From positions 62,001 through 126,000 of the forward strand of contig JAKFWC010000023.1 of NCBI GenBank assembly GCA_021732975.1: a stretch of 64,000 nt of DNA, given 5' to 3'. A program made the translations under genes and the position numbers. Positions 47,718 through 50,660 of the stretch are shown here, in pieces. The notes beneath the pieces were generated by a model. That model saw nothing but the letters and a program-made list of their open reading frames with translations, ran no database searches and was not told the DNA's origin. Origin of the DNA: Planctomycetaceae bacterium. GTDB taxonomy: Bacteria; Planctomycetota; Planctomycetia; Planctomycetales; Planctomycetaceae. Numbering within the stretch: position 1 is the first letter of the stretch; the number at the start of each line of letters is the position of its first letter.

Positions 47718-50660
47718 CTACTTCAGCGTCTCCAGATAATCCAGCAACTCCCCCAGTTCCGCGCGCGTCACCCGTTGATGCAACCCCTGCGGCATCACAG
47801 ACACATTCGACGGCGTCCGTTCTTCAATGTCCTTGCGCGGAATCTTCGTGACGTTCCCCTGAACGTCGCCGAGTTCGACATCGCCGCCGCCGTTTTCGGT
47901 GACGATGATTCCGCTGTGCGTTTTGCCGTCGACCGTGGAAATCGTCCACGTCAAAAACTGCGGCGATATTTCCTTCGACGGTTCGAGAATCGAGCCGAGC
48001 AGCTTCTCGCGGTTCATCGTCCGGGCGATGACCGACAAATCCGGCCCGACATTCCCGCCGCGGCCGTTGACCGTGTGGCACTTGAAGCACAGCGGGCCTT
48101 GATGGTGGTAGAAGACGCGGCGACCGCGGTCGGGCGAAGGCTGAGAGCTAAGGGCTAAGGGCTGAGGGTCGGACGCAGACAACGACGACTTTCCTTCAAG
48201 CGCAAGATCGAACGCTTCCCGCAGTTCACTTCCCCCGCTTGCGGTTTCGCGCCCCGCGCGGAGCGCTTCACCGATCTTCGACCCGGGCGTTCCTCTCCCC
48301 CGTAGCGCGCGAATGGCTTCCAGTTGACACTGCGAAGCATCCGTGGGCGCGACGCGAAACCGCAAGCGGTTGTTGACGGCGTCGAGCAACAATTGTTCAA
48401 CATTCGCGGGCAACGGTTGATCGTGCGGCGTTGCGCACAAACCGGCGATGGCGTCCAGCCGCAACGATGTCTCCGCGTTCTCATCCGCGGCGATTTCCAG
48501 CAGCAGCGGGATGCCGTCGGCTCGCCCCGATTGCTGCAGCGTCCGCACGGCCTGCGTTTTCAGCCCGGCGTCGCCCGACTTCGCGAACTCCAGCAGCAGT
48601 TTCGTCGACAACTCCGCGGTGCTCGCCGGCACCATCTGCAACGCCATCGCCCGCAACGCCGCCGGCCGCTTGTCATCCGCCACAATCTTCATCAACTGCG
48701 TCACCGGCGGCGTTTTCTCAAACTCCGCTGGCGGGACGCCGTCAAGAAGGGAGAGCGTTGCAAGACACGGCATCAACAAATCCGGCGAAAGCTTTTCATC
48801 ATTGAGGATTGCTTCGATGCGAGGGCGAAGTTCTGTCAATTTCTCCTCACCCACCCATTGCACGGCGAGTCCCCGAACAACAGCCAGATCGTCAGCCAAT
48901 ACAGTGGTAATCCAATCGATATCACGAGGAAACAAATCACGTCCCACCAGTGCCCGTAGAATTGAACGTTTGATTCGCAGGTTGACCGAGTTTTGTTGCC
49001 AATGACTCAGTAGTTCTAACAAACGATTTCTATCAAGCTTGCCGGGGGAAGTTAGTGCTGCCGTCGTAATCGATGCTCTTGCCTCTGCTAACTGAAAAGG
49101 GTCGATGTTTCCCGACTTGGACAAAGCAACGATTGAGCTCGCCATATCCAAGAAGGAGTCAAAGGATAAAGGTTTAGAGTTCGATACCAACGACGCCGCA
49201 GAATTAGTTTCAAATTCCATCCGTGCATATTTAGGATGGGCCGTCTGATCGACAAGCCGATTTTGCATGTCATTTGGATCAAGCCGATTCATCAATCCAA
49301 CACGCCATGCCATACGGCGGACATCGAGACGCGGTTCTTTCAATTTCTCTTCTAGTTCTTGAAGATTGGAAACCTGGATCGTTGCGACATCGACGGGACT
49401 CTTCCTCGCAGCTTCCTTCGACGACAACCGCCACACGCGGCCTTTGCGGTGGAGCTTGTAGTCGCGGAGCACCCAGTCGCTGAAGTAGACGCTGCCGTCC
49501 GGGGCGAGGGCGAGGCCGACCGGGCGGAAGTTTTCGGCCCCCTGCACGATCGGTTTCGGCTTCGAGACGAACGACGCGCCTTTCGATTCCAGCACGAACT
49601 GGTCGATACGGTGGTCGCCCCAACTGCCGACGAGGAGCGTGCCGAGATAGTCCGCGGGGAAGCCGTCCGATTCGTAACAGAGGATGCCCGACGGGGCCTC
49701 GCCGGTGCCCGAGACCATCGGCAGCGTGCCGGGGATTTCGCCGTTCCACGCGGTGAAGGGATGGGTGCCGCGGCGGCCGTTGCGGAAGCGGTAACCATAG
49801 TCGCCGCCGGGAATGATGTGCAGCAACCGGCACGGCGGCCGGCTGTCGGGATCGTTGTCCACCGTGAAGAGGCGACCGAAGGCGTCGAAGCAACTCGCGT
49901 GCGGATTCCAGAACCCGGTCGCCCACTTCTCCAGCTTCGACCCGTCCGTCCGGCAACGATACATGTTGCCCCCTTCGCCGCCGCCGGAGAGCGTGATGCC
50001 GTCGCTGCCGATGATTTTGTAATCCGCCCCAAGGTTCTCACCGAAGCCGAAGTACATCCACCCGAGGGCGTCGAATGCAATCCCGGCGAGCCCGTTGTGC
50101 GGATAGTTGCCCGCGGTTTCGAGATGCACAAGCCGCGTCCGTTCATCGGCGACGAGGTCGTTGTTGGTATCCCGCAGGCGGACGATCTCGCCGCGCGTGG
50201 CGACGAAAACCGTGGGTTGAGGGTTTAGGGTCGAAGGTTGAGGGTCAGAGGGAGTCGACTTTTTCTGACCCTCAACCTTCGACCCTAAACCATCAACCTC
50301 CAACCACAGCGGTTGGACAGCCACGCTCATCGCAAACTTGAAACCATCCGCAAAGACGGTGGTCTTGTCCGCTTTGCCATCGCCATCGGTGTCATGCAAG
50401 ACGAGTAACCGGTCCGACGGATGGCCCGCGTAACCGTCCGGTGGAAAGTGCGTGTTGCTCTCGAGGACCCACACGCGGCCGAGGTGATCGACATCAATCC
50501 CCGTCGGCGTCACCAGCGTCGGATGCTCCGCGAACAGTTCCAACTTCAACCGCTCATCCAGCACGCGCGGCAACGCGCCAAGGGATGCATCCTGTGCAAA
50601 GCCGGGGGATGCAATGAGCGCGAGCAGTCCAATGGTGCGGATCATGTTGAAACAGAACAT
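47718..50660 (-). CDS. PVC-type heme-binding CxxCH membrane-bound dehydrogenase-like protein with HEAT-like region and C-terminal cytochrome c
   Basis: FAEHPTLVTPTGIDVDHLGRVWVLESNTHFPPDGYAGHPSDRLLVLHDTDGDGKADKTTVFADGF ... GPLCFKCHTVNGRGGNVGPDLS; contains in-frame repeats (see findings). Confidence 0.92.
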   Translation of the reverse strand: MFCFNMIRTIGLLALIASPGFAQDASLGALPRVLDERLKLELFAEHPTLVTPTGIDVDHLGRVWVLESNTHFPPDGYAGHPSDRLLVLHDTDGDGKADKTTVFADGFKFAMSVAVQPLWLEVDGLGSKVEGQKKSTPSDPQPSTLNPQPTVFVATRGEIVRLRDTNNDLVADERTRLVHLETAGNYPHNGLAGIAFDALGWMYFGFGENLGADYKIIGSDGITLSGGGEGGNMYRCRTDGSKLEKWATGFWNPHASCFDAFGRLFTVDNDPDSRPPCRLLHIIPGGDYGYRFRNGRRGTHPFTAWNGEIPGTLPMVSGTGEAPSGILCYESDGFPADYLGTLLVGSWGDHRIDQFVLESKGASFVSKPKPIVQGAENFRPVGLALAPDGSVYFSDWVLRDYKLHRKGRVWRLSSKEAARKSPVDVATIQVSNLQELEEKLKEPRLDVRRMAWRVGLMNRLDPNDMQNRLVDQTAHPKYARMEFETNSAASLVSNSKPLSFDSFLDMASSIVALSKSGNIDPFQLAEARASITTAALTSPGKLDRNRLLELLSHWQQNSVNLRIKRSILRALVGRDLFPRDIDWITTVLADDLAVVRGLAVQWVGEEKLTELRPRIEAILNDEKLSPDLLMPCLATLSLLDGVPPAEFEKTPPVTQLMKIVADDKRPAALRAMALQMVPASTAELSTKLLLEFAKSGDAGLKTQAVRTLQQSGRADGIPLLLEIAADENAETSLRLDAIAGLCATPHDQPLPANVEQLLLDAVNNRLRFRVAPTDASQCQLEAIRALRGRGTPGSKIGEALRAGRETASGGSELREAFDLALEGKSSLSASDPQPLALSSQPSPDRGRRVFYHHQGPLCFKCHTVNGRGGNVGPDLSVIARTMNREKLLGSILEPSKEISPQFLTWTISTVDGKTHSGIIVTENGGGDVELGDVQGNVTKIPRKDIEERTPSNVSVMPQGLHQRVTRAELGELLDYLETLK
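48139..48172. repeat. ggctgagagctaagggctaagggctgagggtc repeat inside the CDS 47718..50660
   Basis: Similar to 63428-63451 (gggctgatggctaagagctaaggg), about 20/24. Confidence 0.65.
48235..48259 (+). repeat. ccgcttgcggtttcgcgccccgcgc repeat inside the CDS 47718..50660
   Basis: 25/25 identical to intergenic 740-764. Confidence 0.8.
48345..48369 (-). repeat. Inverted copy of the ccgcttgcggtttcgcg repeat inside the same CDS
   Basis: Reverse complement ccgcttgcggtttcgcgtcgcgccc vs 62547-62571 ccgcttgcggtttcgcgtcccgccc (24/25). Confidence 0.7.
50215..50298. repeat. 84-bp palindromic element inside the CDS 47718..50660
   Basis: 35-nt arms ggttgagggtttagggtcgaaggttgagggtcaga / tctgaccctcaaccttcgaccctaaaccatcaacc, one mismatch; length divisible by 3. 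Confidence 0.85.

Follow-up and report, generated by a model that had tools for sequence, protein, structure and literature searches.

Within a 64,000-nucleotide stretch of a Planctomycetaceae bacterium genome (GCA_021732975.1, contig JAKFWC010000023.1, positions 62,001 to 126,000; hereafter the window), we analysed a 35-nt segment at 48139-48173, which is built of seven-base units and lies in frame in a gene encoding a 980-residue protein. This segment is one copy of a dispersed repeat family and not a local tandem expansion. Very probably, the family is made of non-coding and mobile short repeats, whose copies within genes are filtered by the reading frame and can later be overwritten. The elements of the host gene are as follows (types A and B are defined below):

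48139-48173, plus strand: solo A-type heptad arm, the subject of this study; 0 mismatches to (RGYTNAR)4RGNCRGA, read in antisense frame a0.
47718-50660, minus strand: host gene, 980 aa, open, with both elements in frame (open reading frame (ORF) translation, domain likeness, AlphaFold2).
50215-50249, plus strand: B-type arm of the other element, antisense frame a0, giving SDPQPSTLNPQ (consensus scan, frame; hairpin with 50264-50298).
50264-50298, minus strand: its inverted partner arm, B-type, sense frame s1, giving VDGLGSKVEGQ (consensus scan, frame, folding).

The arm at 48139 and its host gene

On the plus strand, the arm reads GGCTGAG AGCTAAG GGCTAAG GGCTGAG followed by the tail GGTCGGA. 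A first-pass annotation of the same DNA had placed a repeat at 48139-48172: the place was right, whereas the unit extends over 35 nt. The minus-strand translation proposed there was also correct, the antisense reading of the arm in frame a0 being SDPQPLALSSQP and the peptide at this site of the 980-aa ORF being SLSASDPQPLALSSQPSPDRGRR. Its parallel with the peptide of the 50215 element (SDPQPSTLNPQP) was borne out as well, since the latter derives from a related arm in the same antisense frame; the 50215 element is an inverted pair, whose two arms fold as a hairpin of -40.5 kcal/mol (z -12.5). Tandem Repeats Finder, which makes no four-heptad assumption, counted 4.3 copies of a 7-bp unit in the 48139 segment and 4.6 in the 50214 element.

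The product of the host gene exhibits a signal peptide-like N-terminus, a DUF7133/GSDH-like propeller, HEAT-like helices and a C-terminal cytochrome c-like domain with a CxxCH motif, which reads CFKCH. In an AlphaFold2 model built from an 11-sequence alignment (mean predicted local distance difference test score, pLDDT, of 72), both inserts are predicted as low-confidence coil. The first along the protein (residues 123-149, pLDDT below 50 for 123-144) would be located between two strands, and the second (about residues 830-842) would join the helical and cytochrome parts. At the protein level, the segment is missing in most relatives of the host gene; the first insert, for instance, is absent from the relatives G025, G020, G055 and G043. 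An example of an insert-spanning peptide is SSLSASDPQPLALSSQPSPDR.

A dispersed family with a fixed anatomy

The window was scanned with the 35-nt consensus (RGYTNAR)4 RGNCRGA, a model which presupposes four heptads. Four arms were detected at 0 to 2 mismatches (48139, 50215, 50264 on the minus strand and 63423), and none of the 100 first-order Markov windows simulated for comparison contained an arm at 5 mismatches or fewer on the one strand scanned; the arms are thus well in excess of chance. In a genome-wide search at the DNA level, with up to 3 mismatches, 43 matches to the four-heptad pattern were found in the source genome (3.76 Mb, 65% complete) versus 0 for the reversed control. In one separate scan, the reversed-pattern control was not independent, AGTTGAG arrays matching the reversed pattern too. 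A likeness of the 48139 segment to the 3' end of an isomerase gene had also been noticed, and a full arm is indeed present there:

63423-63457, plus strand: A-type arm overlapping the 3' terminus of the isomerase-like ORF 62618-63442 (consensus scan; stop TAA at 63440-63442).
63472-63518, minus strand: two more heptad stretches, convergent, one or both apparently partnering the 63423 arm (read directly from the sequence).

The third heptad of the 63423-63457 arm provides the TAA stop codon of the isomerase-like ORF, so that the C-terminus of the protein is changed to ...WLRADG. The two stretches at 63472-63518, identified by reading the letters and not by a family scan, are of a GCGAATA-type with a GCCAGA tail and of a GGTGATA-type with a GGTCAGA tail.

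The copies recur with the same build, four heptads and then the RGNCRGA tail, and no variable-length arrays were found. An arm may stand by itself or face a second one in a convergent inverted pair, with the tails inward and a spacer of mostly 10-40 nt. Long hairpins are predicted for paired arms (z -12.5, -6.2 and -6.4), whereas the solo 48139 arm folds no better than its shuffled versions (z 0.84) and has no palindromic core of its own. In Rfam, no match was obtained above the gathering score, and the sub-threshold matches were microRNA models, against which any long hairpin scores well. Three arm types were defined: A-type (heptad GGCTAAG, tail GGACRGA), B-type (heptad GGTTGAG, third heptad GGTCGAA, tail GGTCAGA) and C-type (heptad AGTCGAG, tail AGCCAGA). 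A fourth type, (NGTYGAT)4 GGTCAGA, is present in genome G003.

The seven-base period could have arisen from slippage of a 7-bp unit at each site without dispersal, as in microsatellites or short tandemly repeated repetitive sequences, and repeats with a heptameric unit have been described from Xanthomonas, Nostoc and Beggiatoaceae (PMC4692102, PMC4679880). However, four heptads and a specific tail recur at tens of sites, convergent pairs among them, and the heptads are position-specific, GGTCGAA for instance being third in B-type arms. Simple tandem expansion, which calls for a variable unit copy number, was rejected on account of this fixed anatomy, and we hold it to be extremely improbable.

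Alternatively, the arms could be G-quadruplex elements kept for DNA or RNA structure, like the four-unit GGGNATC repeats of Xanthomonas, which likewise favour four units and convergent pairs (PMC4692102). Four GGG tracts are indeed found in 18/69 A-type arms, but in none of the B-type (0/47) or C-type (0/2) arms, and the 48139 arm has three. As B-type arms show the same arrangement without four GGG tracts, G-quadruplex formation is not the shared basis of the family; its potential being confined to some A-type arms, it was rejected as a common feature, and this explanation appears very unlikely.

In-frame copies within conserved genes

Among the sampled elements, about a quarter of those in the source genome (8/35) and 16/44 in the congener G001 are inside genes supported by Pfam or by orthologs, all of them open; the other 27/35 and 28/44 lie outside supported genes. 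For the analysis of reading frames, 44 arms within 14 gene loci of two genomes were considered, several loci being mutual orthologs, and 44/44 are open in the frame used. Hosts in the source genome include MetH, KdtA, a polyketide synthase (PKS)-like gene and the 47718-50660 gene, those of the congener include LysRS, ValRS, IleRS and MnmG, and further hosts among the sampled loci are hydantoinase B and a second DUF7133 protein. Most in-gene arms sit in loops or domain linkers.

MetH carries two elements, one in the linker between S-methyl_trans and Pterin_bind and one in the linker between two B12-binding domains. At the protein level, the insert is missing in most of 30 relatives. Several of these align unbroken through the first linker (our residues 360 to 391), which gives an insert of about 90 nt. 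In G003, both of these MetH linkers are occupied by the heptad type of that genome; related types are found in one or both linkers of G023 and G028, and partial arms in G002 and G026. Since G003 is assembled as a single contig, the in-frame arrangement is not an artefact of draft assembly.

The PKS-like host is a KS-AT-FabA protein with several elements. In linkers of this gene (L041:6491; L109:3755 and 5641), one congener has a heptad element and the other a different palindromic repeat, which is GAGGCTCCCGCCGAGCCGCG (peptide EAPAEPR) or the CCCCGGCTGC hairpin; several repeat families are thus accepted there. In the FabA-like region of G001 (L109:7067-7382), a whole extra heptad pair is located in frame beside the right arm, and the matching site of the source genome has the right arm only.

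It could be argued that the peptide itself, a Pro/Ser-rich linker, is selected and that the DNA repeats derive from this coding need. In favour of this, the elements are preferentially found in interdomain linkers, and the same MetH linkers of related species hold elements of other heptad types. Against it, most sampled copies are outside supported genes, the coding copies use five of the six frames with differing peptides, and the segment is missing from most MetH and host-gene orthologs. We consider selection for the peptide as highly improbable.

Frame-specific stop avoidance

Whatever the frame, a 7-nt period yields a 7-residue peptide cycle, of which only some phases are stop-free. The possible stops per heptad are TAA and TGA in the sense reading and TAG and TAA in the antisense reading, each confined to one of the three heptad phases. 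In the sense reading, a safe fifth letter was found in 24/26 stop-critical heptads versus 3/50 non-critical ones (Fisher's test, an optimistic p-value of 2e-14), the two remaining critical heptads being open for another reason. In the antisense reading, it was found in 40/40 stop-critical heptads versus 25/60 non-critical ones (5e-11, equally optimistic). The informative part of this comparison is that the non-critical heptads of the same arms retain the consensus, together with the contrast with non-coding copies. In the 48139 arm, read in phase a0, heptads 1 and 4 are GGCTGAG, where CTTAGCC would yield TAG.

The SDPQP motif is common to the 48139 and 50215 peptides because the two arms share the antisense phase a0. 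This phase is used by 15/44 coding arms, with peptides resembling S(D/V/N)(P/S)Q(P/L)xxLx(P/S)Q. The proposal of the first-pass annotation that the gene took up related elements in one and the same frame, as in Rickettsia palindromic elements (RPEs), is borne out, all 44 coding arms being open and 15 sharing a phase. The RPE analogy holds for the behaviour of the elements; the similarity of the peptides needs no selection for a peptide, since the 7-nt period and stop avoidance account for it.

Type switching at orthologous sites

The comparison of orthologs showed the segment to be neither simply shared nor simply missing. At the second site of the ortholog in the congener G001 (L080), an arm is found at exactly the same place, with collinear flanks and no indel, but it reads GGTTGAG AGTTGAG GGTGGAG AGTTGAG AGTCGGA and its heptad type differs from that of 48139. 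At the first site, both arms are A-type in the congener versus B-type in the source genome (A/A vs B/B). Counting an arm as switched when three or more of its four heptads differed in type, we compared 23 orthologous arms in two congeners, whose flanks are about 15% diverged. The type was switched in 9/23 arms, versus 1.7 expected under a generous model of independent changes (p = 2e-5). Clear changes between genome-wide family types accounted for 7/23 arms (3 in the window gene, where both elements are affected, 2 in L034, 1 in L035 and 1 in L045), and most other orthologous arms had 1-5 position differences or were ambiguous. Switched arms keep their position and orientation, as well as their frame when inside genes.

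We read this switching, from aligned sequences, as probable in-place replacement, in which one copy converted another or a new arm inserted into an old one. It is conceivable, if rather unlikely, that a dedicated machinery keeps overwriting the arms, in which case loops of housekeeping enzymes would hold an exchangeable cassette whose type turns over while position, frame and stop-free state persist.

The proposed history of the family is then as follows. In this planctomycete family, arms made of four degenerate heptads and an RGNCRGA tail, alone or in convergent hairpin-capable pairs, would insert into the genome indiscriminately. Survival within a gene would need the frame to be kept, stop-free variants at the critical heptads, and a site on a surface loop or between domains. 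The peptide added there would be a tolerated by-product, probably neutral, as in RPEs. Later, an arm of another type may overwrite the one at a fixed position; gene conversion from a dispersed copy, or a new insertion into the copy already there, is the most likely route.

Several points weigh against this history. The stop-avoidance test is partly circular, as an intact gene requires a stop-free arm, and arms at orthologous or neighbouring sites are not independent, hence the optimistic Fisher p-values. The genome stretches were sampled because of a family match and the source genome is 65% complete, which makes the coding fractions approximate. The reading of the arms through the genes is deduced from sequence. 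Several independent insertions at a preferred spot could mimic replacement. Finally, among the genomes compared, no near-identical strains had a polymorphic insertion from which target-site features or recent movement could be read.

Distribution across genomes and search for a machinery

A tail-anchored pattern had 70 matches in the source genome, 151 and 60 in the congeners, 92 in G003, 96 in G024 and 307 in G014. Four further genomes had 15-23 matches, and most others of the set were near background. All arm-rich genomes fall in one family. A sequence scan of genome contigs returned three loci, one of which is a congener (Planctomycetaceae bacterium isolate D1_Bin_15); no arm was found at the other two, in metagenome-assembled genomes labelled Candidatus Kuenenia.

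The arms could be repetitive extragenic palindromic sequences (REPs) mobilised in trans by a genome-encoded REP-associated tyrosine transposase (RAYT), their doublets corresponding to REP doublets forming hairpins (REPINs). Inverted doublets with a spacer and a hairpin, present in hundreds of copies, are consistent with this, and Y1_Tnp genes are present in the source genome (2) as well as in each of the ten genomes with at least 15 matches. However, no arm was found within about 1.5 kb of Y1_Tnp at any of 20 loci from element-bearing genomes (G000, G001, G002, G003, G014, G023 and G024), whereas RAYT genes are typically flanked by REPs (PMC3116915). Moreover, Y1_Tnp genes are about equally common in element-poor genomes and do not separate rich from poor, and the single arm has no stable hairpin (z 0.84), unlike the palindromic core of a REP. 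A classical REPIN/RAYT system is thus unlikely. A link with reverse transcriptases was also considered and rejected, the richest genome, G014 (307 matches, 93% complete), having no RVT_1 hit.

Other repeat families were observed in the window. The ATCCACAGAAGGCACAGAGGACACAGAAAG and GCAAAAGGCGCAAGAGG families form perfect or near-perfect inverted pairs at 50755-52335, flanking a regulator gene at 50956-52107 that is AraC-type by sequence. The palindromic family CCGGAGCGC(G/C)AGCGACGG, likely REPIN-like, is found at 7938, 10356, 11232, 13074, 21705 and 61358, with several inverted pairs. The TTCCCACGCTCCGCGTGGGAA hairpin family is found at 16471-16522 and 26791-26931, in 96% complementary copies 10 kb apart. 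In G001 (L099:5958-6110), a second heptad family (TGCAAAGTGAAAAG) forms an inverted pair nested in the spacer of a heptad pair.

Relation to known repeats and significance

RPEs, described in Rickettsia by Ogata and Claverie, are short palindromic repeats found between genes and in frame in conserved protein genes, to which they add a tolerated peptide (PMC2229807). The heptad family is alike in that the same repeat occurs both between genes and in frame within conserved genes, with empty sites among MetH and host-gene relatives. It differs in its unit, a 35-nt four-heptad arm able to stand alone in Planctomycetota versus 105-146 bp in Rickettsia, and in the change of arm type at fixed positions. 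That it behaves as an RPE-type tolerated insert is well supported; its membership in the RPEs is not, the likeness being one of behaviour and not one drawn from sequence comparison. In-frame intragenic copies are also known for GTAG- and CGTC-tagged REPs in Opitutus terrae and Rickettsia conorii, where dimers encode 20-30 aa (PMC3116915, PMC3733652). With REPINs and bacterial interspersed mosaic elements (BIMEs), the family shares dispersed short repeats and inverted doublets forming hairpins (here the pairs, 48139 being solo), but its single arm is heptad-periodic and lacks a palindromic core, and no RAYT neighbour was found at 20 loci. As these two REPIN features are lacking, membership in the REPINs is not supported.

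In Xanthomonas heptameric repeats (GGGAATC), four units are clearly preferred and convergent inverted pairs occur in 70 and 75 cases (PMC4692102). The seven-base unit and the four-unit preference are common to these, to the Nostoc repeats (GGGGA(C/T)T) and to our family, as are the convergent pairs in the case of Xanthomonas. Here, in contrast, a tail follows the four units, many copies are in frame in genes, and B- and C-type arms have no G-quadruplex potential. TAACTGA repeats of Beggiatoaceae and cyanobacteria are simple direct repeats of a single heptamer, some of which lie inside ORFs in the stop-lacking orientation (PMC4679880). Their in-ORF cases are mostly in hypothetical proteins or outside functional domains, whereas here conserved enzymes carry frame-tailored heptads. 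The present family combines features of RPE, REP, Xanthomonas and Beggiatoaceae repeats, and no description of these elements in Planctomycetota was found in the open-licence PubMed Central (PMC) literature.

Rickettsia offers the best-known cases of palindromic inserts in frame within conserved genes, and their tolerance there might be due to reductive evolution. Here the hosts are large-genome, presumably free-living planctomycetes, and the targets include aminoacyl-tRNA synthetases, MetH and MnmG. Owing to the periodic build, the effect of the reading-frame filter can be read off directly for each heptad, and with orthologous sites occupied by different arm types, the way in which very short repeats spread, by new insertion or by in-place conversion, becomes testable.
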